Origin: Candidatus Tepidiaquacella proteinivora
GTDB taxonomy: Bacteria > Bacteroidota > Ignavibacteria > Tepidaquicellales > Tepidaquicellaceae
Assembly: GCA_013348845.1 (NCBI GenBank)
Contig: CP054675.1
Coordinates: forward strand, 372,001 to 436,000
Direction of reading: 5' to 3'
DNA length: 64,000 nucleotides
The translations under genes were made by a program, and so were the position numbers. Positions 7,950-45,997 of the stretch are shown in pieces. The notes under the pieces were generated by a model that ran no database searches, was not told the origin of the DNA, and worked only from the letters and a program-made list of their open reading frames with translations. Numbering within the stretch: the first letter of the stretch is position 1; every line of letters begins with the position of its first letter.

Positions 7950-8079
7950 AATAATTAAAACAACACCTGAGGGAAGAAGTACTGATGATAGACTAATAGC
8001 TTATTTAAAGGAAACACCTCAATTGTCTCTTCTAGATCTTGTTGCAGCACGGGCATTTGTATTCTTCTTTTGGGAGTAA

Positions 8080-14820: not shown

Positions 14821-14832
14821 GAGGAAAACATC

Positions 14833-15534: not shown

Positions 15535-15543
15535 ATTTTTATC

Positions 15544-16206
15544 ATGAAGTTTGAAATTTTAGCCGCCAATCCTCCTTTTAATGATTCCGACTGGGGCGGT
15601 GAAAGCTTACAGGAAGATGTGCGCTGGAAATTCGGAATTCCACCAAAAGGAAATGCCAACTTTGCCTGGATCCAGCATTTTATCCATCACCTTTCGCCAG
15701 CAGGAACCGCAGGCTTTGTCCTCGCCAATGGTTCTCTCAGCTCGATGACTTCCAACGAAGGGGAGATAAGAAAAAACATCGTAGAAGCTGATCTTGTGGA
15801 TTGTATTGTTGCCCTACCCTCGCAATTATTTTACAACACCATGATACCAGCCTGCCTGTGGTTTATCACAAGAGACAAAAAAAATCATAAATTCAAAAAC
15901 AGGCAGGGAAAAGTCCTCTTTATTGACGCAAGGAAAATGGGCGTAATGGTTGACCGAAGGCACAGAGAACTTACCGATGAAGAAATAAAAAAAATCGCAG
16001 ACACCTACCATGCCTGGAGAGGAAAAAACGGCCTCGAATACCAAGACATCCCTGGATTCTGTAAGTCCGCAACACTGGAAGAAATCAGAAAACACAACTA
16101 TATTCTAACACCCGGTCGTTATGTTGGCACCGTAGAGGAGGAAGAAGACGACGAAGCCTTCGAAGAAAAGATTAAGAGCATTAAAATAATAAGAAGTATT
16201 AAATGA
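15544..16206 (+). pseudogene. hsdM: hsdM, 3' part (type I R-M methylase, interrupted)
   Basis: The frame resumes HsdM exactly at motif [22 protein letters not shown], then [32 protein letters not shown], and [20 protein letters not shown]. The ~75 residues between the 5' part and motif IV, including the SAM-binding motif I, are gone. The tail is also cut short: after EEKIKS it reads IKIIRSIK and stops, about 30 residues before the usual end. The stop overlaps the next gene's ATG as ATGA, so this remnant and the SNF2 gene now share a transcript. Inactive alone. Confidence 0.85.
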
Positions 16207-19200
16207 CCAAAATTCAACAAGATAACATTCTTCAAGGACCATTTTGGCCAGAAAAATTAAGAGTTATATCTATCAAAAAAATTAGTGAAGGCCAGATAAA
16301 AATAGAAGCAGTAGGAATTGATTCTAATCAATTTTACAATCCTATTCTTTCGGAAGAAGATATCAAAAACATCAAAGTATTGGAGGAAAGGCCTTTTCTA
16401 TTTTCGGCTGACGGGAATTCTTTATTCCTCTTTTTGGAATCCCACCGCATAAGGAATGCTTTTCAATTCGATCCATTATGTGCTGTGAATGTCTCCCAAA
16501 TCGATCCTTTACCTCATCAAATTGAGGCAGTATATCATTATATTCTGCAAAATCCCCGAATCAGATTTCTTTTGGCAGATGATCCTGGTGCTGGGAAAAC
16601 TATAATGACAGGGCTTTTATTGAAAGAACTTAAATATCGTGGGCTTGTGGAGAAAACGCTCATCGTTGTTCCTGGACATCTTAAGGACCAGTGGCTAAGA
16701 GAAATGAAAGAAAAGTTTCAGGAGAATTTTTCAATTGTAACAAGAGAAACGATGAATGCTGAATGGGGAAAAAATATTTTTACCGATAAAAATCAAATTA
16801 TTGTATCTATGGATTTTGCCAAGCAAGATGATGTGATGATTGCTCTCAAAGATTCTAAATGGGATCTGTGCATTGTGGACGAGGCACATAAGATGTCTGC
16901 TTATAAATATAGTGAAAAAATTGATAAAACCCAGCGTTATAAGTTTGGTGAATTGATTTCTGAGAATTCTAATTTTTTACTTTTCCTTACTGCTACTCCA
17001 CATCGTGGAGATCCTGAAAACTTTCGTCTTTTACTTGACCTCTTAGAGCCAGGTTTCTTTGCTGACACCTCCATGCTTTCAGAATCAATCCAAGATAAGG
17101 ACAATCCACTATTTCTAAGAAGATTAAAAGAAGATTTAAAAAATTTTGATGGTACGCCTATTTTTCCTCCACGACATGTACACACTATTAAATACTATCT
17201 CTCAGACAAAGAAAAGGAACTCTACAACGCTGTTACAGAATATGTTGAAAAGCATTTTAACAAGGCACTTAAAAAAGAGAAACGTAATGTGACTTTCGCT
17301 CTTACCATTTTGCAGCGTCGTCTCGCTTCAAGTGCTCGTGCCATAAGGAAATCTTTAGAAAGAAGATACGAACGTTTAAAGGAACTATACGAAAAAGGAC
17401 AATTCCTTCAGGAGGAAGGATATGACGAGGACTTTATCGAGGATTTAGAAGAGAAAGAGCGATGGAAAAAAGAAGAAGAGTTGCTCGAAAAATTGACTTC
17501 TTCAGAAACACTTGAAGAACTAAAAAGTGAGATAGAAAAACTTGATGAACTTTTGGCTCTCGCTAAAGAAGTTGAAAAAAAAGAAATCGAAACAAAACTT
17601 AATGAGCTTAAAAAATTAATGGATGAGGAAAAACTCCATCATTCTGGAACAAAATTATTAATATTTACGGAATCCAAAGACACTCTTGATTATTTGGTGG
17701 AAAAGCTTAGAAAATGGGGGTATTTAGTAACATCAATTCATGGTGGGATGAATCTAGATGCAAGGATTCATGCTGAGGCTGATTTCAGAAACAAAGCACA
17801 AATTATGGTATCAACAGAGGCTGGAGGTGAGGGTATAAACCTTCAATTTTGTTGGTTCATGGTAAACTATGACATCCCTTGGAATCCCAATCGTCTGGAA
17901 CAAAGAATGGGCAGAATCCATCGATATGGTCAACAACATGAAGTTCACATTTACAATGTGGTGGCGGTGGATACAAGGGAGGGGCAAATTCTTAATAGGT
18001 TATTTGACAAACTCTCCCAGATTAGAGACCATCTCGGCTCCTCGGACAGGGTGTTTGATGTTATTGGTGTAGTACTGGTTGGAAAAAGTTTGAAAGACCT
18101 TCTTGTGGACGCAATCGCCAACCTCAGAACAATGGAAGATATACTTAAAGATTTTGAAAGGGTTCCAGACGAAGAGGCTATTAGGAGAATAATGGAAACA
18201 AGCATGGAAGCGCTTGCCACAAGGCATATCGATTTGAGCAGGATTTTAAAAGAGCAGCGTAAGGCAAAAGAAAATAGGCTTGTTCCTGAATATATTGAAG
18301 AATTTTTCAAAAAAGCTGCGCATAAGCTTAACATTAAAATGGAAAAAAGGGAAAATGACCTGTGGCACATTTCCTCAGTTCCTTTTGAGATTCGTATTCA
18401 ATCTAATGACTTCAAGATTAACTTTGGCGAAGTTCAAAAAGAATACGCAAGAATATCTTTTGACAAGGAGAAAGCATTCAAAACACAGTCTGAATTTGTT
18501 GCTATGGGGCATCCTCTTTTAGAGGCAGTTATTAATAATATAATAAACCAATTCTCACAATCTGCCTTAGATGGAGCACTATTCATTGACCCTGAAGGTA
18601 AAAGAAATGGTGTGATCTGGTTTTTGGATACAGAAATAAAAGATGGTAATAACTCGGTTGCAGGGAAAAAATTATTTGCAGTTTATCAGAATATTAATTC
18701 TTTAGAGCAACCTGAAAATTTTGTTCTACTTAATCCTGCTGTGCTGTGGGATTTAAAGCCACTATCAGCGAAGAAATCATCATCTCAGGAAAAGCCGAAA
18801 CAATTTGAGCATTCAAATCTGACCACAGAAGATTCAGTTAAGACAGAGACTTCATCTGATTATGAGTTGGGAGCAGACTCGTTGGATAAAGATGCTGTCA
18901 TCTCTTTCATTATAAACAATGGGGTGGAAAGTTATAAAAAAGAACTTTTTGAGAGACGTCAGAGGGACGCAAAGATTAAGGAGAAATATGGAATCCGCTC
19001 TCTTGAATCTATGATTTCTAAATCAGATGAAAAAATATCAGATTACGAAACAAGAAGAATAAAAGGCGAAAATATTCCGGATGTAACAATTCAAAATGAA
19101 GTTAGAAAAAAAGAGGATTCATGTAGTAAAAAGGAACGATTGAAAAAAGAGATTGTAGCCGAATCACACTTGTTTCTCACAGATCCGAAAATTCTTTGCT

Positions 19201-19619
19201 TGGTAAGAGTGATACCAGATGAAATTACTGCAAAGATGGTGAGTGATAAAGAAATTGAGAAAATTGGTATGAAATATGCCCTGAACTATGAATTACGCAA
19301 TGGAAGAACCCCAGAAGATGTTTCATCTCAAAACTTAGGCTTTGATATTCGTTCTAACGATGTCTCTGGAAATTATCGCTACATAGAAGTAAAAGCCAGA
19401 GCAAAAGAGGGCGATATTGTTCTAACTCCGAACGAATGGTTTAAGGCACAAAGGCTCAAAGAAGAATATTGGCTTTATATTGTAATAAATGCTGCAAGTA
19501 ATCCAGAGCTCTATTGCATTCAAAATCCTGCAGCTAAATTTAAGCCTGAGCAGGAAATTGATATTGTAAGATATGTTGTTAAAAACTGGAAAGAAAAGGC
19601 GGAGGCGTCAAATGATTAG
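16203..19619 (+). CDS. SNF2-family helicase with C-terminal DUF3883
   Basis: In this 1138-residue protein, residues ~100-300 hold helicase domain 1: DDPGAGKT (~126-133), [17 protein letters not shown] (~224) and LTATPHRGD. Helicase domain 2 (~485-610) has [25 protein letters not shown] and [10 protein letters not shown]. Long coiled segments lie between the two and after them. Residues ~1020-1120 carry DUF3883 (GFDIRSND ... [20 protein letters not shown]), a restriction-like fold with E-x-K. This architecture is that of SNF2 proteins in DISARM-like and COG1743/COG1483 defence clusters, where the protein is thought to move along DNA. It is the first gene of the module and overlaps the next gene by 8 bases. 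No damage seen. Confidence 0.88.
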
Positions 19620-20979
19620 AAATGAAATTCTAAAGTTGATAGAAAAGGGTGAGTGTGACAGTATTGAGTTTAAAGAAAATTTTGATAAGGAGACTATAGA
19701 GACTGCCGTAGCCTTTGCCAATACAAAAGGTGGAAATATTTTTATTGGTGTTTCAAATAATGGTATAATTAAAGGTATACAAATCGGAAGAGAAACACTT
19801 AAAGATTGGGCAAATAGGATTTCTCAGAGTACAGAGCCTCGAATCATTCCTGAAATAGAAGAAAATGAAATTGATGGTAAAAGGATAGTTAAGATTTACA
19901 TTAAAGAATTCCCTATTAAGCCAGTTTCTGTAGTTGGAAAATGTTTTAGAAGAGTTGGCACCAGCAACCGTTTGATGACACCACAGGAAATAGCGCAAAT
20001 GCATCTTCATACTACTGATACAAGTTGGGATAAATTTCCAGCAAAAGACGCGCAAATTAAAGACATAGATATTGAAAAAGTTAAAAAATACATCAAAAAA
20101 GCCAATGAAACCGGCAGAAGAAAAATAGGCCAGGAAACATCTTGGCAGGTTTTAGAAAAATTAGGATTAACAAAAGATGAACAGCCCACTTGGGCCGCAA
20201 TTCTACTTTTTGGGAAAGATCCCCAGCATTTCCTTTCTCATGCTGCAATACATTGTGGTAGATTCAAGGAAGAGACCATAATTATTGACGATAGGATGAT
20301 TGAAGGAACAATCATTGAACAGGTAGATGAAACTATGGAGTTTATAAAAAAAAATATTAATGTAAAGTTTCTAATGACTGAAAAACCTGAGAGGGAACAG
20401 AAATGGGATTATCCTTTAGATGCTTTAAGAGAAGCTGTAATAAATGCGGTATGTCACAGAGACTATACTATTCCTTCCAAAACTGAAATCAGAATATATG
20501 ATGATAAACTGGTTGTCTTTAGCCCCGGCGGGTTACCTGCTGGTATTACTATAGAAGATTTATACAGGTCGCATTCTTCGGTGCTACGAAACAAAGTAAT
20601 TGGAGAGGTACTCTATGATATCGGTTGGATTGAACAATGGGGCAGTGGCATAGAAAAAATGCGAAACGCTTGTGTGAAAAATGGGCTTCCTGAACCTAAT
20701 TTTGAAGAATATCAGGGGTTCAAGGTGATTTTAAGAAAAGATGTCTATACAGTAGAATATCTCCAAAATATCGGTTTAAATGAAAGGCAAATTAAGGCGG
20801 TATTGTATGTGAAAGAAAAAGGGAAGATTACAAATAAGGAGTATCAGAAACTTAATCAGGTATCAAGGCAAATGTCTACTATAGATCTTTCAAAAATTGT
20901 TGAAAAAGGATTATTTACAAGAATTGGAAAAGCAGGAAAAGCAATTGCCTACAAATTGACTAAATTGACTAATAAATGA
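19612..20979 (+). CDS. AlbA_2/Schlafen-type ATP-binding protein
   Basis: The start ATG 19612 follows GGCGGAGG, inside the end of the SNF2 gene. Residues 10-125 form the AlbA_2 (Schlafen AlbA) domain: CDSIEFKENFDKETIETAVA and FANTKGGNIFIGVSNNG. Residues ~260-365 carry the C-terminal HATPase-like block (LREAVINAVCHRDYT, FSPGGLPAGITIED, IEQWGSGIEKM). A winged-helix tail completes the 455 residues. Such proteins act as regulators or as effectors in defence loci. The overlap with the helicase gene and the 123-base gap to the DUF1156 gene put it inside the module. The last residues repeat LTK/LTN codons (LTKLTNK). Appears intact. Confidence 0.85.
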   Translation: MIRNEILKLIEKGECDSIEFKENFDKETIETAVAFANTKGGNIFIGVSNNGIIKGIQIGRETLKDWANRISQSTEPRIIPEIEENEIDGKRIVKIYIKEFPIKPVSVVGKCFRRVGTSNRLMTPQEIAQMHLHTTDTSWDKFPAKDAQIKDIDIEKVKKYIKKANETGRRKIGQETSWQVLEKLGLTKDEQPTWAAILLFGKDPQHFLSHAAIHCGRFKEETIIIDDRMIEGTIIEQVDETMEFIKKNINVKFLMTEKPEREQKWDYPLDALREAVINAVCHRDYTIPSKTEIRIYDDKLVVFSPGGLPAGITIEDLYRSHSSVLRNKVIGEVLYDIGWIEQWGSGIEKMRNACVKNGLPEPNFEEYQGFKVILRKDVYTVEYLQNIGLNERQIKAVLYVKEKGKITNKEYQKLNQVSRQMSTIDLSKIVEKGLFTRIGKAGKAIAYKLTKLTNK

Positions 20980-21102
20980 CTAATATTTGCCTAATAAAAA
21001 ACTATTTTAACGAAATGGAATAATTAGAATAAAAAAGTTGATTCTAATAAGATTACACAAAAGTAGTTCAAATTTTAGTGATGAACATAAGGAGGAGTAA
21101 AA

Positions 21103-23779
21103 ATGACTACTAAATCCTTTATTGAATTCGATTTTCCAGTAAAAGAAGTAAGTGAAGAATCTGCACGAGAGAAGAATATAAGGCATGGGCATATATCTAC
21201 CTTGCATATCTGGTGGGCAAGAAGACCTCTTGCTTCTTCAAGGGCAAGTGTTTATGCAGCATTAACACCAGAACCTAAAGATGAAGAAGAACGTTTAAAG
21301 AAAGCACAATTTATTCATAATCTTTCTAAGTGGGAAAATTCTTTAAATAAACACTTAATTAACAGAGCAAGAGAGGAAATTTTAAAGGCAAATAATGGTA
21401 AACCGCCAAAAGTTCTTGACCCTTTTTCAGGCGGTGGCGCGATTCCTCTTGAAGCATTAAGACTGGGTTGTGAGACATACGCCAATGATTTAAATCCTGT
21501 TGCTGTTCTTATAGAAAAATGCACCCTTGAGTATCCGCAAAAATATGGGCAGCCAAAAACTGTAAAGTCATATGATTTAATAGATGAAACTGAAATCAAT
21601 CCATTGCTTGAAGATGTAAAAAAAATGGGGGGAATGGGTATTAGAAGAAGCAAAGAAAGAGATCGGTAAATTCTATCCTTCTGAACCAGATGGTTCTATC
21701 CCTGTTGGCTATATCTGGGCAAGGACAGTAAAATGTGGCAATCCTGCTTGCGGCGTTGAGATCCCTTTAGTAAGGCAGACATGGTTAGCAAAAAAGGATA
21801 ATAAGAAGGTTGCCTACAAATTAATTTCAAAAAGAAACAAAGTTGAGTTTGAAATAAGAGAAGGTAAAGATATAGACTTTGACCCTGAAGTTGGAACAAT
21901 TTCAAGAGCAAAGGTTATCTGTCCATGTTGTAACTCTACTTTAAGTGATAAAGAAGTAAGGAAACAATTCCAGGAGGGAAAATCAGGACAGAGGATGGTT
22001 GTAGTAGTATTGCATAATCTAAATAAACAGGGAAAAACCTATAGGCTGGCCACAGAGAAAGATTTAAAAATTTTTATGGAGGCAGAAAAATATCTTGAGA
22101 AGAAAAGACAGGAACTTATGGATAAATGGGGTTTTGACCCTGTTCCGGATGAACCTATGCCACCTAAAGAAACTCTTGGATTTCGTGTTCAAAGATATGG
22201 CATGTGGAAATGGAGCGATCTTTTCAATTCCCGCCAGAAACTTGCTTTGATTACCTTTGTAGAAAAGGTAAGGCAGGCACATCAAAAGATGCTTAATGAA
22301 GGTATGCAAAAAGAATATGCAAAAGCGGTGGTGAGTTATTTGGCGCTTATAAACGGTAAACTTATTGATAAAACATCTTTTCTTTGCAGATGGCTATCTA
22401 CATCAGAACAAGTGGTAGCTACATTTTCTCGCCAAGCATTACCTATGGTTTGGGATTATGGGGAATTCAACACTTTAACAAATGAATTTGTAGAGTGGTG
22501 TTCAAGCGTTGTATCTCATCTATCTAGAATATTTGCAAATTCAATCACTAACATAACTCAATCCTCTGCAACATCTTTACCCTATCCTGATAACTACTTT
22601 GATGCTGTCATTACCGACCCACCATATTATGACAATGTTCCTTATTCTTACCTTTCAGATTTTTTCTATGTCTGGCTAAAAAGAACAGTTGGAGATTTGT
22701 ATCCTGAACTCTTCGCCACACCATTAACACCAAAAGCAGAAGAAATTGTAGCTTATTCACATGGCGAAAATGGGCTTGAGGGCGGCAAGAAGTTTTTTGA
22801 AGATATGATTGGCAAAGCCTTCAAAGAAATGTATCGTGTGTTAAAACCAGAAGGTATTGCCTGCATTGTCTTTGCCCACAAATCTACTGACGCCTGGGAG
22901 ACAATAATAAATGCACTTCTTAATTCCGGACTTTATCTTACTGCATCCTGGCCCATACATACCGAGATGAAAGCTCGTTTGAGAGCAAATGAATCAGCTG
23001 CTATGGCGTCATCCATCTATATGGTCTGCCGCAAACGAGCTGAAAACAAAACAGCATACTTTAATGAAATAAAGCCGCAGATAGAAGCAAGAATTAAAGA
23101 AAAATTAGACCAATTCTGGAATGAAGGGATTGGCGGTTCTGATTTTTTTATTTCAGCCATTGGACCTGCAATGGAGGTTTTTGGTAAATATGAAAGTGTA
23201 GAGAAGATATCAGGGGAGAAGGTTTCAGCAGCAGAGTTACTTGAATTCATCCGAAAAAGCGTTAGTGAATATGCATTAACAAAAATACTCAAAAGTCCAC
23301 AGCTTGGAGGAATAGGTGAAGAAACAAGGTTTTATCTACTCTGGCGTTGGTCTTATAATGGTGCTAAAGTTCATTTTGACGATGCAAGAAAACTGGCGCA
23401 GGCAATTGGTGTTGAAATTACAGAGCACTGGGGTAATGGTTTCATTAAAAAAGATAAGGAATTCATTTCCGTGTTAGATGCAAAAGAAAGAGGTAAAAAG
23501 TTTTTAGAAAGAGAAAAGTTTGAAACTATGATAGACATATTACACGCGTGTCTTCTCTATTGGGAACAAAATAAGCGCAAGTCAATCTCTGAGATACTTG
23601 AAGGAACGGGTAATCAAAACAATAACTCTTTCTGGCAGGTAGCACAGGCAATTTCGGAAGTTCTTCCGGAAGGAGACAAGGAAAAGCAGATGCTTCAGGG
23701 CTTTCTTTATGGAAGAGAAAGCTATACAAAAGAAGCAAAATCAGTTAAAGATCAAAAGTCATTATTTGAGGAGGAATAA
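21103..23779 (+). pseudogene. DUF1156 (COG1743) adenine-specific DNA methyltransferase, frameshifted
   Basis: The N-terminal DUF1156 motif is FIEFDFPVKEVSEESAREKN ... LHIWWARRPLA. Motif I is DPFSGGGAIPLEALRLG (~105). After LLEDVKK the frame should read [20 protein letters not shown]; an eighth A in the run at 21617-21624 shifts it to a stop at 21667-21669. The correct frame continues through a Zn ribbon (CGNPACG ... CPCC), [20 protein letters not shown] (motif IV, N6-adenine type) and on to TGA-free sequence ending at 23779. ATG 21103 follows AAGGAGGAG. Known: these enzymes sit with DUF499 ATPases and helicases in defence clusters. One base would restore it, so a recent mutation or a sequencing error are both possible. 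Confidence 0.85.
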
Positions 23780-23781
23780 AA

Positions 23782-26399
23782 ATGGCATTAAAATTATGGT
23801 GGCAGGTAGCAACACCTCATAAAGATATTCGTGAGGGCAAATTAAATGAGGCAATTTTTGCAGCAGATTTGGGTGATGTGCATATTGGCAAAGCGCCATT
23901 GGAGTATAACGATCCTGTACTCTTTTTCCAAAAAACCTACCTAACTCAAGGATTAAAAACCCTTCTTGAGAATGTACTCTTCCGTTTAAATGGTGGAAAG
24001 GGTGATCCAGTAATACAACTTCAGACACCATTTGGAGGTGGTAAGACACATGCACTTCTTACTTTATATCATGCTATAAAAAATCGAAAAGAGATCGCTC
24101 ATTTACCCATCATATCTGGACTACCAGAGATCAAGAATGCGAAAGTAGCAGTATTTGTTGGGACTCATGCAGATGCAGTATCTGGAAAAACTCTTTGGGG
24201 AGAAATCGCTTCTCAGTTAGGACAATACGAAGTTATAAAAGACCATGACAGAAAGCGAATTGCTCCCGGCAAAGAAAAGTTTCGACAGATTCTTGATGCT
24301 TCAGGTCATACCCTTATTTTATTAGATGAACTTTTAGAATACATTGTCAAAGCTAATCGGGCAGAAAAAGTTGAAAGAATTACGCAAGGTCAAACACTTG
24401 CTTTTATTCAAGAGTTAACAGAGCTTGTTGCTACTTCAGGTAAAAGTGTTCTGGTTATTACTCTTCCTGCCAGCATTCTTGAACAATATGATGAAGAAGC
24501 AGAGAAAACTTTACAGCAGTTGCAGAAAATTTCCGGAAGGGTAGAAGCTATTTATACCCCTGTAGAAGGTTTTGAAATTTATGAAATAATAAGAAAGAGA
24601 TTATTTGAAAATATTGGCGATGAAAAAACAAGGAGAGAGGTAGCACAGAGTTATTTTGATCTATATCAAAAATTAGGAACGGATGTTCCTTCATATGTAA
24701 GGGAAGTTGCATATCGTGAAAAAATTATCCGTGCTTATCCATTTCATCCTGAGCTGATTGATGTTTTATACGAGAGGTGGGGCTCATTTCCAACATTTCA
24801 GCGAACGAGAGGTGTTTTAAGACTTTTAGCGGAGATTGTAGCCGACACTTATAAGCAGAAAATACCCTCTCCACTTATTCAATCTTCAATGGTCAATCTG
24901 GAGAAACCTGTGTTGAGAAGAGAATTTATTAAACATATAGGCAATGAATATGACAGCATTATTTCTTCCGATATTGCAGGTAAAGATGCTAAAGCGTCAA
25001 AAATTGATAGAGAAATGGGAAGTGAATATGAAAAATATGGTATCGCAAAAGGAATTGCTACTTCTGTATTTTTAAACTCATTTAGTGCTGGAGCAAGTAA
25101 AGAAACAACTTTGCCAAGAATTCGAGTGGCTCTTTTACGGGAAGGTATCCCTGAAACTATCGTTGGTGATGCCATCGCTAAGTTAGAAGAAGAACTTTGG
25201 TATTTTCACTCCGAGAAAAAACAGTATGCTTTTAGAAGTCAGCCAAATTTAAATCGTATAATAGTTGATAAAGAAGAGACTATTTTCGATAGCAGAATAA
25301 TAGAGGAACTTAAAGCAAAAATTCAAAAATCTTCAGGTGATGCATTTGAAGTTTATCTATGGCCAGAAAATTCATCAGACATCCCGGATAATAAAAACCC
25401 TAAACTTATAATTCTTTCTCCGGATTTTTTATATGATTCAAATAAAGAAAATAAACTTGTATCTGAGTTTTTTGAAAAAGCCGGCACTGGTTTCAGGGTA
25501 TATAAAAATTTACTGTTTGTTCTGTCTATGGATAGTACCCAATATATTATTTTAAAGAAATCATTGAAGCGTTTTCTGGCACTTGCAGAAATACAGCAAG
25601 ACAAAAATCTGATTGAAAGATTAAATAAAGAGAGTCAGGAGGAATTGAAAAGTAAATTAAAAGAAACTGAAAAAGATTTACCTATGAAAATTTTAACTGC
25701 CTACAGGTATTTGGCGATATTAGATGTAAATGGAGTAAACTGGTTAGACGTAGGTATTCCAACAGTTGGGTCAAATGACAGCATTTCGAAAAGAGTTAAA
25801 CAGTATCTGATTGATAAAGAAAAATTCTTTCTCGCGTAACTACAAAGTATATAATTGAAAAAACATTTGCAAAAGAAGAGAAAGAGAAGACTTTGCGAGA
25901 AATTTACGAACTTTCTCTTAAGACTCCGGGAATGTTTCTTTTTGAAAATGAAAAAGTTATAATCGATGCCATACAAGAGGGAGTAAAAAATGGTTTCGTT
26001 GGAGTTAAGGAAGGCACAGAGGTTTATTACGAACAGGATGTTTCTCCAACAATGGATACTGTTGTTTTGCGTGGAGAAGTAGCAAAAGAGATAAAGCAAG
26101 CAGAAAAAAAAGAGAAAGAAAAAATAGAAACTAATATACCAGAAAAAGGGGAGGAAGTAAAAAAAGAGAGTGGAACAGTTAAAAGTTTGACTTTTAGAGC
26201 TAAAATTCCATGGGATAAATTTTCTGATGTAGTAAGTGGAATCATTCGCCCCTTAAAAGATAAGGGACTTCCACCAGAGATTACCATTGAAGTTAGAGCA
26301 AAAACAGAAGAAGGGTTTGATAGAACAACATTGGACTCCAAAGTTAGGGAAACTCTTAAGCAGATAGGTGGAAAAATAGAAGAGTGGAAAGAGGAATAA
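23782..26399 (+). pseudogene. DUF499 (COG1483) ATPase, frameshifted near the C-terminus
   Basis: The gene begins 2 bases after the DUF1156 stop, with GGAGGAATAAAA before the ATG. Walker A is PFGGGKTHALL (~84), Walker B LILLDELLEYI (~176), followed by VLVITLPASILEQYDEE and YPFHPELIDVLYERWGSFPTFQ, which are hallmarks of DUF499 AAA+-like proteins. At 25820-25824 the run has five A where six would keep the frame: it reads DKEKFFLA-stop instead of DKEKILSRVTTKYIIEKTFA. The corrected frame continues to 26399 and includes the C-terminal domain (KIPWDKFSDVVSGIIRPLKD). The first 685 codons would still be made. Role: motor partner of the DUF1156 methylase and SNF2 helicase, from known gene association. 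Confidence 0.85.
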
Positions 26400-36543: not shown

Positions 36544-37650
36544 ATGCAACAATTTTTAACATTTGTAAAAAAGGAGTTTTATCATATTTTCAGGGACAGA
36601 TGGACAATGATAATTCTTCTTTTATTGCCCATTGTGTTACTTGTTTTGTTCGGTTTTATTATGTCTTATGAAGTAAAAAACATTTCCTTTGCTGTTTATG
36701 ACCCATCCAGGGATATTGCTACTCAGGGTATTGTAAATAAAATTTCTATGAACGAGTATTTCATTTTTTCCGGATATCTTGATAGCCCTAAACAGATAGA
36801 AAAAGTTTTCAGAAGCGGTAATATAAAACTTGTAATAGTTTTTAGTGGGAGATTTTATGAAAATATAATGCATACAGGAGATGCACAGGTACAGTTAATT
36901 ACAGATGGTTCAGATCCAAATACTGCTTCTATGGTGACAGTGTATGCTTCAAATCTTATAATATTATACCAACAGGAATTAATGGGCGAAATGAAAATTC
37001 CATATCAAATTAAACCTGAAATTAAATTTCTATATAATCCTACTCTTAAAGGTTCATATAATTTTGTTCCTGGTGTTATGGGTATGGTGTTAATGTTGAT
37101 TTGTGCAATGATGACTTCGGTTTCTATTGCCCGTGAAAAAGAGTCAGGAACTATGGAGGTTTTACTTGTTTCACCTTTAAAACCTATACAAATTATAATA
37201 TCTAAAGTTGTACCATATTTCTTTATATCTATTGTAAATCTAACAACAATTCTTCTAATCACAGTTTTTGTACTTGATATGTCAATTCAAGGAAACTTAT
37301 TACTACTAATTCTTATTTCTTTAATTTTTATTTTTGTCTCGCTATCTATTGGATTACTTATTTCATCAGTTGTGGATAAGCAGATGGTTGCAATTTTAAT
37401 TTCTGGTATGGTATTAATGTTGCCTGTAATAATGCTTTCCGGAATGATGTTTCCAGTAGAGAATATGCCATTTATACTTCGATGGTTATCGGAAATTATT
37501 CCTGCTAAATGGTATATGAATGCAGTAAAGAAAATAATGATACAAGGACTTGGATTTTCTTCTGTATTAAAAGAATTCATAGTTTTAAGTTTTATGGCAA
37601 TAATACTTATTTTCGCAAGTGTTAAACGATTTAAATACAGATTGGAATAA
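36544..37650 (+). CDS. ABC-2 type permease (YbhS-like)
   Basis: An ABC-2 permease of 368 residues: one N-terminal helix (MIILLLLPIVLLVLFGFIMS), a large periplasmic loop (~50-175) and five further C-terminal helices starting at VMGMVLMLICAMMTSVSIA, followed by the family motif REKESGTMEVLLVSPLKP. The paired permease begins 2 bases after its stop. Confidence 0.9.
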   Translation: MQQFLTFVKKEFYHIFRDRWTMIILLLLPIVLLVLFGFIMSYEVKNISFAVYDPSRDIATQGIVNKISMNEYFIFSGYLDSPKQIEKVFRSGNIKLVIVFSGRFYENIMHTGDAQVQLITDGSDPNTASMVTVYASNLIILYQQELMGEMKIPYQIKPEIKFLYNPTLKGSYNFVPGVMGMVLMLICAMMTSVSIAREKESGTMEVLLVSPLKPIQIIISKVVPYFFISIVNLTTILLITVFVLDMSIQGNLLLLILISLIFIFVSLSIGLLISSVVDKQMVAILISGMVLMLPVIMLSGMMFPVENMPFILRWLSEIIPAKWYMNAVKKIMIQGLGFSSVLKEFIVLSFMAIILIFASVKRFKYRLE

Positions 37651-37652
37651 TT

Positions 37653-38765
37653 ATGCTCAAATATTTAATTGAAAAAGAATTTAAACAGTTTTTCAGAAAT
37701 ACATTTTTACCTAAAGTAGTAATAGCGTTGCCATTGTTTGCAACTCTTATTTTTCCATTAGTTGCAAATTATGATATAAAAAATATTAATTTAAGCATTG
37801 TTGATAATGATAAGAGCTCATACTCAAGTCAATTAATTCGGAAAATTGAGTCTTCTGGTTATTTCCGGATTACAGATGTATCTTCCACTTATAGTTCAGC
37901 ATTAAAAAGTATTGAAGAAAATAATTCCGATATTATTCTCGAAATACCGAACCATTTTGAAACAGATATAGTTAAGGAAGGGGAAACTAAAGTGTTAATT
38001 TCGAGTAATACTGTAAATGGAATGAGAGGTGGTTTGGGAAGTGCTTATCTGAATTCTATAGTTTCTGATTTTAATTCAAATATTCGCAGCGAACTGATGC
38101 AAATAATAAAAGGCAAACAAGTTCCTTCACTTGAAATTGTTCCTATGTTTAAGTTCAACCCACGGCTTATTTACAGGGTATTTATGATTCCGGCAATAAT
38201 GGTTATGGTATTGGCTTTAATTTGTGGGTATTTACCTGCTTTAAATATTGTTGCTGAAAAGGAAAGTGGTACATTTGAACAGATGAATGTTACTCCTGTT
38301 CGTAAGATACATTTTATATTAGCGAAACTTATTCCTTACTGGGTTGTAGGTTTTGTAGTACTTACTATTTGTTTTTTTTCAGCGTGGGTATTCTATGGGT
38401 TTTTACCTGTCGGCAGTTTTATTACGCTGTATGTATTTACAAGTTTGTTTGTATTGGCAATTTCCGGTTTTGGATTGGTAATTTCCAACTATGCAAATAC
38501 ATTACAGCAGGCAGTTTTTATGATTTTCTTTTTTGTTATAACATTTATTTTCCTGAGTGGCTTATATACTCCTGTTGCAAGTATGCCTAAATGGGCTCAG
38601 TTTTTAAGCAATTTTAGCCCATTAAAATATATAATTATGGTATTTCGCTTAGTATATCTTAAAGGAAGCACAATCCCTGATTTAATTATACCATTTTTTT
38701 CATTAATAGGGTTTGCAATATTTTTTAATGGGTGGGCTATTTTAAGTTATCATAAAAAGAACTGA
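37653..38765 (+). CDS. ABC-2 type permease (YbhR-like)
   Basis: The same architecture as its upstream partner: a first helix near residue 22, a periplasmic loop, and a membrane domain starting IPAIMVMVLALICGYLPALN with AEKESGTFEQMNVTPVRK. 370 residues. It is the last gene of the efflux operon; after it comes a 167-base AT-rich gap. The two permeases and two ATPases would form one exporter. Confidence 0.9.
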   Translation: MLKYLIEKEFKQFFRNTFLPKVVIALPLFATLIFPLVANYDIKNINLSIVDNDKSSYSSQLIRKIESSGYFRITDVSSTYSSALKSIEENNSDIILEIPNHFETDIVKEGETKVLISSNTVNGMRGGLGSAYLNSIVSDFNSNIRSELMQIIKGKQVPSLEIVPMFKFNPRLIYRVFMIPAIMVMVLALICGYLPALNIVAEKESGTFEQMNVTPVRKIHFILAKLIPYWVVGFVVLTICFFSAWVFYGFLPVGSFITLYVFTSLFVLAISGFGLVISNYANTLQQAVFMIFFFVITFIFLSGLYTPVASMPKWAQFLSNFSPLKYIIMVFRLVYLKGSTIPDLIIPFFSLIGFAIFFNGWAILSYHKKN

Positions 38766-38932
38766 TAGAAAATTTGGATTAGTTAGTTGAGAACTATTAT
38801 AAATATCTTTTGATTGTAATCATTATAGGAAAGTATCTTTAATTTTTTTAATTATTGAATTTGAAGTAGAAAAAATGGTTATTATTTAATTTGTATTGCA
38901 CGCAATTCAGCTAAAGATATTTATTAATTGTA

Positions 38933-39733
38933 TTGTTAATCTTTTATTTCTATTTTAATTTAATAATTAGAAAGTTTTTCAAAAAATTGAAAAGAAAATT
39001 TTCTAAATATCCTCCAGCTGATTTAATTGTTTGCTGGCTTAAATATAAAAATGATTTATCTATTTTATTAAATGACGGGTGGTATAGAATCCCTCTGGAA
39101 AAAGCGCCTAAAAATATTTTTAATGTAAAATACCTCGCTTTTTACCAATCGTATGTATTTGGGAAAAATGCTTACATTATTAAACATTTCGGTACTATTG
39201 ATAAAATTCAGTCCTTAAAACGGTATGAGTTATTTCCCAAAGAAAAAACAAATGTAAAATCCGGATTAGATTATCTGAAGATATCAATGAAAGATATGAA
39301 TATACTTGAAAAGCCGATAGTAGCAAAGCGTCCGCGAAAAATTGTTTTCATAAATAGTACTTTAAATAAACTTCTAAACGCAAATGATGTTAATGACCTG
39401 TTTCACAATAGTCCTCTTGAAGATACACTCTGGTATCATCTGAAGAAAAACAACATTGTAGCCGAACGACAATATTACATATACTCGGGAAAAAATGCAT
39501 ATTCACTTGACTTTGCTGCTTTCTGCAGGAAAGGGAATGTTGATATTGAATGTGATGGTGATACTTACCACACAGGAAAAGAAAAAGCTGAACTTGATAA
39601 CAAACGAGATAACTATCTTACAAAAAAAGGCTGGAGCATTTTAAGATACAATACATCACAACTTAAAAAAACTGATGAGTGCGTTGCAGATATTGTAGAG
39701 CTCATCTATCGCAAAGGTGGAATTTTGAGGTAA
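38933..39733 (+). CDS. DUF559 (Vsr-like) nuclease-fold protein
   Basis: The C-terminal ~110 residues match DUF559, a Vsr/PD-(D/E)XK-like fold: SPLEDTLWYHLKKNNIVAER, YSLDFAAF (Asp ~191), VDIECDGDTYHTGKEKAELD (Glu/Asp ~203-205) and KKGWSILRYNTSQL. The N-terminal ~130 residues are not recognised and start with a hydrophobic stretch. TTG 38933 is the longest start; a start inside the hydrophobic part is also possible. It is isolated between the efflux operon and a peptidase-like gene. DUF559 proteins are often found near mobile elements; a DNA-nicking role is inferred, not shown. Confidence 0.7.
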   Translation: MLIFYFYFNLIIRKFFKKLKRKFSKYPPADLIVCWLKYKNDLSILLNDGWYRIPLEKAPKNIFNVKYLAFYQSYVFGKNAYIIKHFGTIDKIQSLKRYELFPKEKTNVKSGLDYLKISMKDMNILEKPIVAKRPRKIVFINSTLNKLLNANDVNDLFHNSPLEDTLWYHLKKNNIVAERQYYIYSGKNAYSLDFAAFCRKGNVDIECDGDTYHTGKEKAELDNKRDNYLTKKGWSILRYNTSQLKKTDECVADIVELIYRKGGILR

Positions 39734-39894
39734 GCTTTGATAAAGAAGAATTGTTGATGAAAGTATTATACAAATTATGGTTTAGAATATGAAAAGTATT
39801 TATATAAAGAATTATTTTATGTTTTATTTAGTAATTTTTTCAAATTTTTTATTATTGAAGAATTTTTTATAAAATATTTAATGGAGGGTCTATA

Positions 39895-41460
39895 ATGTTT
39901 TCCATAATGAATTTTGATAGTCTGTCAGGTAAGGTTTTTAAGAAATTATTTATTCTTCTTTTCATAAACATAAGCACTATTGTTTTCGCGCAGGATGCAA
40001 ATTACAATATTGAGGAATATGATTTATATATACAGCCTGACTTTTCAACTAAAGAACTATTAATATCAACAAAAATTACTTTGAACAATCCGGATTTACA
40101 GGATACATTTTATTTCGGGCTTAATGAAAGATTTGATTCATTGATTGTCAAATCTGAATCATCATCGGTTTCATTACAAAGAGAGGATGGATGGATTGTT
40201 ATCGTTTTACAGAAGCCAATTAAACAAGAAAAATTTCTTTTTGAGACAAAAGGTAAGCTGGGTAAAAGTGATAGTGAAAATAGGGATGTTGTTACCGATT
40301 CCAGTCTTTTTTTAATATGGTCGGATTGTTTTTATCCAATTGATTTTAATCATTGGGCAAAAGTTAAAACCACAATTTTATTGCCAGATAATTTTAAAGT
40401 AATTGCTCCGGGTAAACTAATAAATATTAAAAAATATGAAAATTTAATTGAGCATACATTCATTACGACTAATCCTGTTGTATGTTTTTCAGTTTTCGCA
40501 GATTCAAGATGGATAGAAACGAGAAAAACAATTAACGGAATAGAAATGCAGACACTTCTTTACCCCCAAAATCAAAAATTTTCAGAACAGATTTTTCAGA
40601 CAAGTAGCGAAATTTTAAATTTTTATTCAGAAACTTTTTGCGAATATCCTTTTGACCAGTTTAGTTTTATTAACCTTGACGGGATATACGCAAGGCGAGC
40701 GTTTCCTGGCTTTGTGGGTTACAGCCCTGCTTATCTGGTTAAAGAGTTTACAAAAACAGGTTTTGATGCACATGAAACAGCATTGCTTTGGTGGTTTTAT
40801 ACAATAAGAGGAGATGGACCGGGTAGTTTCCAGTGGACAGAAGGTTTTGGTGATTATGCAGAGTTCCTTTATGATGAAAAATATCAAAAACCAATCCCTG
40901 AGATTTTTCAGTATTTTCGTAATGAATATCTTAAAATGTCCTCAGAGGAGGATGTTATGTACTATGAACTAAATGGAAGCACACCACAGAAGATTGTGCA
41001 TGGGAAATACCCCTGGCTTATGCATATTATCCGTTATAAAATAGGTGATGAAAAATTTACAAAAACGATGAAACTAATATTCGAAAAATTTAGATTCAGA
41101 ACATTTAGTATCGATGAATTTATATCTGTACTTGAAGAAGGTTCCGGGCAAAGTATGCAATGGTGGCGAGAGCAGTGGCTGGAAAGAAAAGGGGTTCCTG
41201 TGATAACATTTAAATCTGATATTCAGTATAATACCGATTCTTATATTATTAAATGTATTCTTTCACAAACAGGGAACATTTATGACTTACCAATTGAAAT
41301 AAAAATTGATACTGAAAAAGGAACTGAATTACACAAGATAAATATCAAAGAGAAAGAAACTATAATTACTTTCGAATCAAAAGAAAAACCAATTAAGATT
41401 ACACTTGACCCGAATCATTGGTTATTAGCAAAAATAATTTATCTGAATCAGAATTTGTAG
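39895..41460 (+). CDS. Secreted M1-like metallopeptidase homologue, zinc site incomplete
   Basis: A signal peptide (LFILLFINISTIVFAQ) precedes an M1-type N-terminal beta domain (residues ~30-215) and a gluzincin-like catalytic domain. The expected HExxH-(18)-E reads HETALLWWFYTI (~292) followed by WTEGFGDYAEFLYDE. The first His, Glu and third ligand Glu are present, but the second zinc His is Leu. In M1 enzymes that residue is essential, so this copy is probably inactive or binds metal differently. ATG 39895 follows GGAGGG. A C-terminal domain (410-521) of beta strands is like the non-catalytic end of M1 proteins. It stands alone. Confidence 0.75.
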   Translation: MFSIMNFDSLSGKVFKKLFILLFINISTIVFAQDANYNIEEYDLYIQPDFSTKELLISTKITLNNPDLQDTFYFGLNERFDSLIVKSESSSVSLQREDGWIVIVLQKPIKQEKFLFETKGKLGKSDSENRDVVTDSSLFLIWSDCFYPIDFNHWAKVKTTILLPDNFKVIAPGKLINIKKYENLIEHTFITTNPVVCFSVFADSRWIETRKTINGIEMQTLLYPQNQKFSEQIFQTSSEILNFYSETFCEYPFDQFSFINLDGIYARRAFPGFVGYSPAYLVKEFTKTGFDAHETALLWWFYTIRGDGPGSFQWTEGFGDYAEFLYDEKYQKPIPEIFQYFRNEYLKMSSEEDVMYYELNGSTPQKIVHGKYPWLMHIIRYKIGDEKFTKTMKLIFEKFRFRTFSIDEFISVLEEGSGQSMQWWREQWLERKGVPVITFKSDIQYNTDSYIIKCILSQTGNIYDLPIEIKIDTEKGTELHKINIKEKETIITFESKEKPIKITLDPNHWLLAKIIYLNQNL

Positions 41461-41475
41461 TGTTCTGATTTATAA
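41446..41475 (+). terminator. Hairpin overlapping the stop of the M1-like gene
   Basis: AATCAGAA (41446-41453) pairs with TTCTGATT (41463-41470); the stop codon lies in the loop, and an A/T run (TATAAAAATTTTT) follows. An 8-bp stem with a T-rich tail is compatible with an intrinsic terminator. Confidence 0.4.
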
Positions 41476-41701
41476 AAATTTTTCTATGATTTATTTGAAT
41501 AACAGCAATTCTCCTGATAATATCTCTGTGTAGTATGATTTTAGTAATTGGTTATACAAAGAAAAATTGTTTATTGACTTATAGTTTGATATACAAAATT
41601 CATCTTTACGATTTAAGATAATATACAAGGATTATATTGCAAAAGAATAAATGTATATATATATTATAAAATTAACAGACTTCATCAAAAAATAAACTAA
41701 T

Positions 41702-43018
41702 ATGATTGTTAAAATAATCAGAAAAATTTTACATTTTTTTAGTTTAGATTCCGAACTTGAGAATCAAGACAAGGTTTATGATGAAATTTCTAAGGGGGCA
41801 ATTTTCAAAGGAACTAATCTCTGGATTTTATTCTTTTCAATTATTGTGGCTTCAGTTGGTTTGAATATGAACTCAACTGCTGTGGTAATTGGCGCGATGC
41901 TTATATCACCGTTATTAGGACCAATAAACGGATTGGGATATAGCATTGCTACTTATGACACAGAGCTGTTCAGGAAATCTATAAAAAATTTTATATTTGC
42001 AATATTAGTAGGACTTATAGGTTCAACAGCATATTTTGCAATAAGTCCAATTTCTACAGCACATTCAGAATTATTAGCAAGAACAAGCCCTACAATATAT
42101 GATGTATTGATTGCATTATTTGGTGGCTTAGCAGGTATCGTGGCAATCAGCAGCAAACATAAAGGAAATGTTATTCCCGGTGTTGCTATAGCGACTGCTC
42201 TTATGCCACCATTATGTACAGCCGGATATGGATTAGCAACGGGTAAATTGAATTTTTTCTTTGGTGCTTTATATTTGTTTACAATCAATACCATATTTAT
42301 CGCAATTGCTTCCGTCTGGATTTCCCGTATATTAAAGTTTCCTATAAGATCAATTATTGATGAGCGGAAAAAGAGGAGAATTAATAGACTAATTACTTTA
42401 TTAATTACAATTGTACTTTTACCAAGTATATATTTTGGATATGAACTTGTGAAACAAGAAGATTTTTTACAAAAAGCAAATAATTACGTTTCGAATGTAT
42501 CAATTATCGAGGGGAATTATCTTTTAAAAAGTGAAATTGATGCAAAATCAAGTAAAATTATTTTAGTGTATGGTGGGACAACACTTTCAGAAAATCAAAA
42601 AAATATTATAATTAAAAAATTATCAGATTTCAACATTGAAGATGCATCTGTAATAATAGAACAGGGATTAACTTTCTCCAGCAAAGATGACAGAAACACT
42701 GAATTATTTAAACTTAGAGAGCAAATTTATAATCTGAATACTTTATTAGCTAAAAAGGATTCGGAAATAGATAGTATATTAAATAAACAGAAAATGGGGC
42801 TTGAAATTTTAAATGAGGTTAGAACTATTTTTCCTCAAATTAATGGATGCTTGTATTCTGAGTCTTTAAACTACATTGATTCATTAGAAGCACCTCAGAG
42901 CATACCAGTTGTAATTTTATCAACGGATAGAAAAATTCGAAATGATGATAAAATTAAGATTAATAATTGGCTGAGACAAAAATTAAAAAACGATAATGTA
43001 AAGATTTATTATGAATAA
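41702..43018 (+). CDS. DUF389 family membrane protein
   Basis: The 438-residue protein has the DUF389 (TIGR00341-type) core: IIVASVGLNMNSTAVVIGAM and LISPLLGPINGLGYSIATYD near residues 50-90, then GGLAGIVAISSKHKGNVIPG and VAIATALMPPLCTAGYGLAT. About six membrane helices occupy residues 35-245. A soluble C-terminal half follows, with a coiled coil near 335-365. The function is unknown in the family. The gene stands between a possible terminator and the thioredoxin-like gene. No recognised regulation. Confidence 0.85.
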   Translation: MIVKIIRKILHFFSLDSELENQDKVYDEISKGAIFKGTNLWILFFSIIVASVGLNMNSTAVVIGAMLISPLLGPINGLGYSIATYDTELFRKSIKNFIFAILVGLIGSTAYFAISPISTAHSELLARTSPTIYDVLIALFGGLAGIVAISSKHKGNVIPGVAIATALMPPLCTAGYGLATGKLNFFFGALYLFTINTIFIAIASVWISRILKFPIRSIIDERKKRRINRLITLLITIVLLPSIYFGYELVKQEDFLQKANNYVSNVSIIEGNYLLKSEIDAKSSKIILVYGGTTLSENQKNIIIKKLSDFNIEDASVIIEQGLTFSSKDDRNTELFKLREQIYNLNTLLAKKDSEIDSILNKQKMGLEILNEVRTIFPQINGCLYSESLNYIDSLEAPQSIPVVILSTDRKIRNDDKIKINNWLRQKLKNDNVKIYYE

Positions 43019-43330
43019 ATTATAAATACCGCAAAGTTGTGAATATAAAAGTATCAATCAATTATTTCATTATACTAACGGGTTTAATTTTTTGATTTTA
43101 AGTTTTTAAATATTGTTGTGAAATTATATAGAAACTATTTACATACTTTTAATATCACCAGTTAAAATTGTTTTCTCAGTTTAATAAATTTTTAAAAACT
43201 TTTTTTTGTTTATAATTTCATAAAATAAATCTGAGATTTCTTTTTGATTTTAAAAAAGAATTCAATAAAATTTTTTTATAATGAAACTATTGTATTTTTA
43301 GACAAAATTTTATTTAAATTAAAAGAAAAT

Positions 43331-43642
43331 ATGATAGAGTTTCAATATTTTAATGGGTGTCCAAATGCGGAGAAAACATTGAGTAATTTAAAAGAGCTTA
43401 TCTTTGAGGGATTAATTCGTGAGGATGAAATTAAAATAACTGAAGTCCCTGATATTGATTCTGCAAGGGAATTAAATTTTCAGGGTTCACCTACTATTTT
43501 AATTAACGGACGGGATATATATACAGAAGAAAAACCCACATCATTCAATTATAGTTGCAGGGTATATACTATAAATGGTATAAGAACAGGTGTCCTTCCA
43601 AAAGAATTTATTCTGGAAAAAATAAAAAAACTTCGGGTGTGA
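43331..43642 (+). CDS. Thioredoxin-like small protein
   Basis: ATG 43331 fits both the start of the family and its decayed paralogue at 492; an upstream in-frame ATG at 43244 would add 29 AT-coded residues with no homology. The 103 residues open MIEFQYFNGCPNAEKTLSNL and include LNFQGSPTILINGRDIY, giving a thioredoxin fold with a GCPxxxxT loop and a cis-Pro (SPT). Only one Cys occurs in the loop, and another in SCRVYTI. Such proteins are often annotated as thioredoxin family or alkylmercury-lyase-like; the substrate is unknown. This is the intact copy of the pair. Confidence 0.8.
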   Translation: MIEFQYFNGCPNAEKTLSNLKELIFEGLIREDEIKITEVPDIDSARELNFQGSPTILINGRDIYTEEKPTSFNYSCRVYTINGIRTGVLPKEFILEKIKKLRV

Positions 43643-43828
43643 TTTATTTATCTTGTTTTATTGAAGACATTTCTGATTAACTATTAGATGAATTCATTAA
43701 ATCAGGAAGTGATATAAACATGAATTGTAATTTGAAATGTTAAATTGAAAATATGAAAGTGAGATAGTTACTTTCATTAAGGTAATGATTAGAAGGGGAT
43801 ATTGAATTTCTAATATATAACTTAGATA

Positions 43829-45997
43829 CTATGTATCTTTAAACATTTTTCTAACTACTTTTATTAAATCGTCAATTGAAAATGGTTTTGATATGTAGTG
43901 AGTAAATCCTCTTAATAGAAATTCTTTCTCATCTTTTTCAGCGGCAAAAGCAGTTATTGCTAATATTGGTGTATCCTTGTATTCAGGTATTTTTCTTATC
44001 ATTTCCATCAGTTGTGCGCCGTCTATACCACGCCCAAGGTTTATATCTATCATTAATGCATCGTATTTATTTTTCTTTACTTTTTCTAATGCTTCGTCTG
44101 CTTTTTTTACCATTTCTATTTTATAATGTTTAGGAAGTACTCTTGAAACTAAATCCAGCGCTATATTTTCATCTTCCACATAGAGAATTCTTTTTGTCGG
44201 TTGTACATTGATGAGTGAATCTTTTTCAGTAGTGTTGTCAGTTTCAGTTATTGTAATTGATGTATCCACCTGCGAAACCCGTTGAACTGGTAATTCTATT
44301 GTAAAAGTAGAACCTTTTTCTAATTCACTTTCCACAGTTATTTTACCTCCCAACAACTCAACATATTTCTTTGTGATAGTAAGACCTAATCCGGTTCCTT
44401 CAAAAGCACGGCTTCTGCCTTCACTGACTTGTCTGAATTCTCGCCAGATAATTTCTTTTTTATCTTCGGGAATACCTATTCCGGTATCTGCAACTTTTAT
44501 TATCAAATATTTACCATCCTGTCTTTTTTCAATTACTGATTTAAGTTCAATACTTCCTTCATTTGTGTATTTTATTGCATTGCTAATCAGATTATTGATT
44601 ATATCTCTTAATAAACTATCTTCTGTTTTAATAATCAGTTCATCTTTTTTATATTTTCTGTCAGTAAAGATATTCTTTATGTATTTAAGATTTTTCTTTT
44701 CAGCTGCTTTACTAAATAATTTAAATGATTCATCTAAAAGCTCTTCTATATTAATTTCTTTTATTATTAATTTAGGTTTTTCAAATTCAAGTCTTGTTAG
44801 ACTTAAAACTTTATTTAATGTTTCAATTAATCTTTTAGATGAATTATGTATTCTGTTAACAAATTCTTTTTGTTCAGGGTCTGTTATCAATTCAGACAAA
44901 ATCTCAGAAAAGCCAATAATTCCGACAAATGGAGTGCGAAGTTCGTGACTCATATTTGCAAAGAAATATGATTTTACTTTATTCATTTCTTCTGCTTTTT
45001 CCTTTGCTGCGATTAATTGTTCTACCATTTCCTGTCTTAATTTTACATTAACCAATAATTGAGCAAAGACTTTTAACAATTGAATTTCTTCATCTGTGAA
45101 TACACGACGTTTTTTTACAGCATCAAACCCAATAAATCCGATACAGATATTTTCATTCATCATTGGAACGGTAATCAGACTTTTGATTTCCTGCGGTTCA
45201 AGTATTTGTCTTACTCCATCAGATTCATTAAGAGCGAAAACATCTGTTACTGTTAGTATTTCTCCTTTCTTATGTTTTTCTACCCACCAGGGAATCATAT
45301 CAAGTGGTACGTTTTGCAAATTATCAATTTGTGGAGATATTCCTTCAGCACACCACTCAAAAGTATTAATACAGACGTTTTTATTGTAATCGTAATCAAA
45401 AATGTAAGCACGGTCTGCATTAACAAACTTTCCAATTTCTGCTAAAGCATTCTGAATTTCAGAATTTACTTTATCAAAAGAAATATTAATAAATCGGGAA
45501 GATATCTCCATAAGTAATTTTCGAAATTCGTGTTCATATTTGATTTTAGCTTCCATCAATCTGAGTTCGGTAATATCTTCAGCAACTCCTTCTATCCAAC
45601 CTTTATCCGGGTAAATTTTTGCTGAAAACCTTGCCCAGAAAATTGATTTGTCTTTTCTGTAGAAACGTGCTTCGAAATTTTTTACAACACCATCTCTTTT
45701 TATTATTTCTATCATTTTTTCGCGAGTGCCGGCATCAACATAATTCTGCGATGTAACATATTCTTTGATGAATTCTTCTCTGCTATCATAACCAAACATT
45801 CTGGCAAGTTGTTCATTACTCTCTAATATTTTACCGTCAGATATTCTTGTTCGGAATAAGCCGACTTGTGCATTCTGGAAAAGATTACGATAAGTTTCCT
45901 CGCTTTCGCGAAGTTTCTCTTTTGCAATTTTCTCATCTTCTAAGATACTTAGAAGTGCTTTTCGTGCAAGGTCTGAATTTTTTTGTGTTGTATTCAT
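43829..45997 (-). CDS. Hybrid sensor histidine kinase / response regulator (PAS-GAF-HisKA-HATPase-REC)
   Basis: The 722-residue protein has no membrane helix. Order: helical N-terminus, PAS (~25-145, ending EGVAEDITELR), GAF (~170-320, FVNADRAYIFDYDYNKNVC), HisKA (FFANMSHELRTPFVGIIGFS), HATPase (NNLISNAIKYTNEG, DTGIGIPEDKKEI, FEGTGLGLTITKKYVELLGG) and a REC domain (ILYVEDENIALDL, phospho-Asp in ALMIDINLG, Lys in YISKPFS). It is a cytosolic hybrid kinase able to pass phosphate within itself. It is the last gene of the kaiC-kaiB-PAS line but is separated from it by the repeat array, so it may be transcribed on its own. A signalling output of the Kai proteins is inferred from order. Confidence 0.9.
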   Translation of the reverse strand: MNTTQKNSDLARKALLSILEDEKIAKEKLRESEETYRNLFQNAQVGLFRTRISDGKILESNEQLARMFGYDSREEFIKEYVTSQNYVDAGTREKMIEIIKRDGVVKNFEARFYRKDKSIFWARFSAKIYPDKGWIEGVAEDITELRLMEAKIKYEHEFRKLLMEISSRFINISFDKVNSEIQNALAEIGKFVNADRAYIFDYDYNKNVCINTFEWCAEGISPQIDNLQNVPLDMIPWWVEKHKKGEILTVTDVFALNESDGVRQILEPQEIKSLITVPMMNENICIGFIGFDAVKKRRVFTDEEIQLLKVFAQLLVNVKLRQEMVEQLIAAKEKAEEMNKVKSYFFANMSHELRTPFVGIIGFSEILSELITDPEQKEFVNRIHNSSKRLIETLNKVLSLTRLEFEKPKLIIKEINIEELLDESFKLFSKAAEKKNLKYIKNIFTDRKYKKDELIIKTEDSLLRDIINNLISNAIKYTNEGSIELKSVIEKRQDGKYLIIKVADTGIGIPEDKKEIIWREFRQVSEGRSRAFEGTGLGLTITKKYVELLGGKITVESELEKGSTFTIELPVQRVSQVDTSITITETDNTTEKDSLINVQPTKRILYVEDENIALDLVSRVLPKHYKIEMVKKADEALEKVKKNKYDALMIDINLGRGIDGAQLMEMIRKIPEYKDTPILAITAFAAEKDEKEFLLRGFTHYISKPFSIDDLIKVVRKMFKDT

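Follow-up and report, generated by a model that had tools for sequence, protein, structure and literature searches.

In M1 enzymes, a glutamic acid of the N-terminal domain holds the amino group of the substrate and, alongside it, the glutamic acid of the GAMEN motif holds the peptide amino terminus. The aminopeptidase domain of TAF2 is catalytically dead. In TAF2 (TAF150), a large eukaryotic transcription factor subunit of TFIID, an aminopeptidase domain lies in the N-terminal part, according to an excerpt of PMC1199594. The pseudo-M1 proteins that we found in the literature are eukaryotic, namely TAF2 and Tma108, the latter as covered in a portion of PMC11266112; a bacterial M1 pseudopeptidase was not found in the open-licence literature. 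Tma108, from the yeast cytosol, is described in that portion as an M1-fold, putative pseudo-M1 protein that binds nascent chains and is thought not to cut, and that retains its active-site residues with one exception and employs its substrate pocket (PMC11266112). In contrast, the pseudo-M1 protein described here is bacterial and apparently secreted, and it lacks four active-site elements. Its likeness to TAF2 is one of description and not of sequence comparison.

An altered M1 active site

The pseudo-M1 gene lies in a window of 64,000 nucleotides, by which we mean the whole stretch of DNA that was analyzed. Its features, in window coordinates, are as follows.

39883-39888, + strand: likely ribosome binding site GGAGGG, from direct reading of the sequence
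39895-41460, + strand: pseudo-M1 ORF, ATG start, 521 aa plus stop, with M1 homology over near its whole length
39895-39990, + strand: likely signal peptide, residues 1-32, cleavage before Q33 (by eye)
40306-40356, + strand: residues 138-154, LFLIWSDCFYPIDFNHW, at the N-terminal-domain anchor Glu site of active M1 proteins, with no Glu (alignments)
40690-40710, + strand: residues 266-272, ARRAFPG for GAMENPG, the motif Glu being A269 (alignment), as in 3/3 orthologues
40759-40914, + strand: residues 289-340, the former active-site segment and best conserved part, 46/52 invariant (orthologue alignment)
40771-40794, + strand: HETALLWW, residues 293-300, H293 and E294 kept, codons CAT GAA ACA GCA TTG CTT TGG TGG
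40783-40785, + strand: L297, codon TTG, at the second zinc-His position; CTG and CTC in the orthologues
40840-40842, + strand: E316, kept at the third zinc-ligand position (alignment)
40999-41001, + strand: H369, codon CAT, at the catalytic-Tyr position (alignment); CAC in both orthologues

In a profile-profile comparison, the three orthologues match an 11-sequence M1 alignment over 490 columns (E 4e-47, probability 100%), so HETALLWW is not a chance HE word, and all 18 PDB profile matches of the protein are aminopeptidases or tricorn factor F3. Like the M1 aminopeptidases (PepN, ERAP1, LTA4H; PF01433), to which it is tied by this 490-column homology and by fold matches that were all M1 among the 50 chains listed, the protein keeps the first His, the catalytic Glu, and the third-ligand Glu. 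Unlike them, it is without the second zinc His, the catalytic Tyr, the GAMEN Glu, and the N-terminal anchor Glu, and it scores below the Pfam and NCBIfam cut-offs. The Pfam M1 (PF01433) match is subthreshold, at 20.5 bits against a cut-off of 27.7, and falls toward the C terminus of the catalytic domain, while two NCBIfam PepN models give 43.6 against 591.2 and 28.5 against 718.2. Weak M1 matches can conceal proteins unable to cut, which is a warning for annotation.

AlphaFold returned a mean pLDDT of 42 with two sequences and of 56 when five distant M1 rows were added; in the latter model the active-site segment stayed below 50 across residues 287-330, and the geometry of the cavity is therefore not readable from it. 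With this model, M1 chains made up 50 of the 50 matches listed by Foldseek and likewise 50 of the 50 listed by VIA-align (best Z 18.0, rmsd 5.2, 346 aligned), a partly circular result, given that the model had been built from an alignment with M1 sequences. These fold matches include a structure of E. coli PepN mutated at Glu121.

The earlier note on this DNA had described a secreted, full-length M1-like protein in which the first His and Glu and the downstream Glu remain while the second zinc-binding His is Leu, and these observations hold. L297 (TTG) replaces the second His within HETALLWW (residues 293-300), H293, E294, and E316 are in place, and the M1 match spans 490 aligned columns of a 521-aa protein. 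The likely signal peptide, read by eye from residue 1 to about residue 32, has no lipobox Cys; the protein is apparently secreted, and its location is probably the periplasm. Three further losses, which the note does not mention, came to light: H369 stands in for the catalytic Tyr and A269 for the GAMEN Glu, and in none of the three orthologues does any residue align with the N-terminal anchor Glu. The zinc signature of HExxH plus downstream Glu is absent, with HETAL, including L297, in 3/3 orthologues, although E316 stands 23 residues after H293, a spacing as in aligned active M1 proteins. The exopeptidase motif is likewise absent, A-RRAFPG aligning to rows of the GAGAMENPG type, as is the Tyr motif that precedes K-G-A, where VHGKYPW stands against VYxKGAW and H369 occupies the Tyr column. 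At the sequence level, then, four active-site elements are shown to be lost, and the losses are fixed in all three intact orthologues. In rat aminopeptidase B, replacement of the residue equivalent to L297 left 0% activity in each of H329A, H329Y, and H329F, the substitutions, Leu not among them, listed in Table 3 of PMC2241622. There is good support for the view that the pseudo-M1 protein would be unable to function as an ordinary M1 aminopeptidase.

Of the other M1-like ORFs in the fetched loci that reach 400 aa, 63/63 have HExxH, 50 of them with x18-19-E and 13 with HELLHN; this tally covers best-match loci and leaves out shorter frames (e.g., L006) and the window family's own rows. The window's own genome has four other M1 matches above the Pfam cut-off, and all four have HExxH. 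An M1 paralogue in this genome (L078, G000:C1 at about 1242108) shows an unusual HEISHTYFPF context, with DEGW replacing NEGF.

In a 70-row tree, the three pseudo-M1 sequences form one clade (100/100). This clade adjoins, with values of 91/88 that are below the starred level and on long branches, a group of M1 proteins of the same class that are without GAMEN (GYGMPSFTLLG, HELLHNWWG; ORFs of ∼1030-1050 aa). The two share the missing GAMEN motif, and the N-terminal anchor stretch is similarly degenerate in that group. In contrast to the pseudo-M1 protein, however, the neighboring group keeps HExxH and a downstream Glu and has a C-terminal part that by eye resembles an M28 peptidase. A stepwise path may have been followed, in which peptide-terminus recognition was lost first and the zinc His later. 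Fusions of GAMEN-less M1 (HELLHN[WY]WG) to an M28-like part, again by eye, are common in the class (L043, L044, L049, L056, and similar loci).

Distribution, conservation, and gene neighborhood

A contig scan for relatives, made with short exact peptide patterns, found one, L032 (68% identity; record titled Melioribacter sp. A05DMB-I-17). Genome searches found relatives in G241 (73%) and G378 (68%; its contig is L032), and a broken copy in G233. The two other intact orthologues, at 73% and 67-68% identity, belong to the same class as the window genome and to another family. The pseudo-M1 family is rare and patchy. In searches that scored the best three candidates per genome, with even draws from larger groups, a match of at least 58% identity was present in 4/391 genomes of the class sample, the window's own included, and in 1/395 of the phylum sample, which is the window genome itself. 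Matches occur in 3/79 genomes of the family of G241, in 3/164 of its order, and in 1/44 of the window's own order, again itself; the gene is absent from the two other genomes of the window's genus that were examined. In G233, the copy (L074 4989-5691) has its middle deleted and retains residues 59-178 and 394-517 in different frames. It lies near GNAT and Rce1-like genes, which resemble the neighbors of the G241 copy but are differently ordered.

HETALLWW, A269, and H369 are common to 3/3 intact orthologues, whose codons vary synonymously at two of these positions, L297 being TTG, CTG, and CTC and H369 being CAT, CAC, and CAC. For the three orthologue pairs, NG86 estimates of dN/dS are 0.167/1.467, 0.221/1.628, and 0.166/0.804, or 0.11, 0.14, and 0.21, and a maximum likelihood method gave lower ratios, with dS up to 5.9; these ratios are rough, as dS, which ranges from 0.8 to 1.6 with NG86 and as high as 5.9 with maximum likelihood, is near or at saturation. 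Among the three orthologues, residues 289-340 are invariant at 46/52 positions compared with 258/436 in the remaining mature protein. Three triples of active relatives have 35/46, 38/51, and 31/46 invariant positions in the same segment and 217/426, 199/422, and 191/393 outside it. By this comparison, which is small because it rests on the three intact pseudo-M1 sequences, the altered site appears constrained at least as strongly as a working M1 site. As read from the aligned sequences, the protein is shown to be under purifying selection, strongest at the altered site.

A 523-aa piece of RpoB from the window genome is 96% and 86% identical to that of two other genomes of its genus and 70%, 71%, and 69% identical to that of G241, G378, and G233. 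The corresponding values for the pseudo-M1 protein, which should evolve faster than RpoB, are 73%, 68%, and 69%, the last for an N-terminal piece. DNA similarity covers the gene and not its flanks (window 39985-41445 for G241; 40016-41421 for G378). When window 36544-45997 was searched at the DNA level against two genus mates, with 40/203 and 40/253 candidates scored, the matches among them were confined to parts of the histidine kinase and to a single stretch of 103 bases in an ABC permease. The pseudo-M1 gene lies in an accessory region, and the simplest reading is that it was probably horizontally transferred.

Upstream of the gene is an efflux set consisting of an outer membrane efflux protein, an HlyD-type protein, two ABC ATPases, and two membrane ORFs that are permeases by eye. 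A DUF559 protein is encoded upstream and a DUF389 protein downstream, and the pseudo-M1 gene seems to stand alone, judging by intergenic gaps of 161 and 241 bases. The neighbors of the G241 copy are GNAT and Rce1-like genes. At L032, two small ORFs directly downstream of the orthologue (7773-8543 and 8549-9628) have signal-like N termini and HExxH-like words (HELGH and HEIGTH). Since neighbors differ at the window, G241, and L032, gene context gives no partner, and a recurrent partner gene beside the three intact copies was not found at the level of DNA flanks or in protein synteny judged by eye.

Several vehicles were considered and rejected. A shuffled gene order at two of the orthologue loci prompted a search for shared attC-like repeats of an integron cassette, and no convincing ones appeared in the intergenic sequences or repeat lists. 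Plasmid carriage yielded 23 plasmid records with a weak match, none reaching 60% identity and none covering 80% of the query, and a scan of viral contigs contained no relative of the protein. As a candidate defence gene, it matches no PADLOC family.

Possible roles of the pseudo-M1 protein

We favor, at somewhat better than even probability, a secreted M1-fold pseudoenzyme kept for a binding or scaffold role. In such a protein the remodelled cavity would bind a ligand, which may be a peptide, protein, or polymer held otherwise than by its amino terminus, or would alternatively serve as a contact surface, and the protein would act by holding or sequestering a partner. The gene would be an accessory one that moves between families of the class, and its benefit would thus be conditional and not housekeeping. 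A binding protein, or pseudopeptidase, with inhibition and peptide sensing among its possible tasks had been put forward in the earlier note. The observations speak neither for nor against an inhibitor role. Its starting point stands, as loss of the second His is real and is found in both other orthologues, whereas a peptide-sensing role is weakened, because the GAMEN Glu and N-terminal-domain Glu that bind the peptide terminus are gone together with the catalytic Tyr. Counting against a binding role are the broken state of one of the four known copies and the retention of H293, E294, and E316, residues that a pure binder could dispense with if they made no contact with the ligand.

Retention of these three residues leaves room for a rebuilt metal site, in which H369 would join H293 and E316 to bind a metal, making the protein a hydrolase or a metal binder with altered specificity. 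In 3/3 orthologues, His occupies the Tyr position, and in M1 enzymes the residue at this position adjoins the zinc-bound substrate, an ERAP1 inhibitor contacting both (excerpt of PMC8188423). However, the peptide-positioning motifs are gone, substitutions of the second His abolished the activity of rat aminopeptidase B (Table 3 of PMC2241622), and the AlphaFold model is too weak for H293-E316-H369 distances; we regard such a site as unlikely. In its most specific form, a gluzincin-type active site would have been re-engineered, the second zinc His being given up and the catalytic-Tyr position turning into His, and a new metal centre of H293, E316, and H369, with E294 as the base, would sit on an M1 scaffold without peptide-terminus recognition, which we consider decidedly improbable; if true, it would define a new horizontally mobile family of hydrolases or metal sensors lying below the cut-offs of standard models. 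With H369, the idea of a rebuilt metal site comes down to a clear yes or no. A further role, as regulator of an active M1 peptidase in the same cell, by binding the enzyme or by sharing its substrate, would fit the four HExxH-containing M1 proteins above the Pfam cut-off in this genome, and metallopeptidase families are known to include pseudoenzymes acting as regulators of active relatives (portion of PMC11266112). Yet no M1 gene adjoins the pseudo-M1 gene among the neighbors scanned, and active M1 genes are present in 59/59 relatives searched, nearly all of which are without the pseudo-M1 protein, making this role quite unlikely.

Rarity and patchiness of the family, and the G233 copy, one of four, which has lost its middle and has its remaining parts in different frames, would be expected of an accessory peptidase gene decaying after transfer. 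This is disfavored and, in our estimate, very unlikely: three full-length frames carry the same four losses, dN/dS is near 0.1-0.2 with the strongest constraint at the altered site, and copies decaying independently would not all have settled on L297, A269, and H369. Nothing was found in favor of an ordinary M1 gene having been missequenced or misassembled, and the probability of this is negligible. A single miscalled base cannot produce L297, since TTG matches neither His codon at any position, and the same residue occurs in two orthologues from other assemblies. The earlier note had raised the question of whether orthologues share the Leu or have an intact HExxH: both other intact orthologues have HETALLWW, with different Leu codons, so that L297 is present in 3/3, and a point error or recent mutation at this position is refuted.

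With a binding or scaffold pseudoenzyme as the favored reading, this small, mobile, and apparently secreted bacterial family, with its four losses fixed together, would provide a clean test case for the conversion of a protease scaffold into a binding protein.

Defence genes elsewhere in the window

At window 12900-16206, a type I-like methyltransferase is seemingly split, its two ORFs (12900-13643 and 15544-16206) matching consecutive parts of one model, and between them lies a pair of type II methyltransferase and restriction enzyme genes (13606-14820 and 14833-15534). Hma-type defence genes occupy 16203-25839. These comprise the helicase HmaA (16203-19619), HmaB in two pieces (21103-21669 and 21995-23779) with the middle part of the model unmatched, and HmaC/DUF499 (23782-25839). 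An Argonaute-like ORF (19573-20979) is located inside the Hma set.
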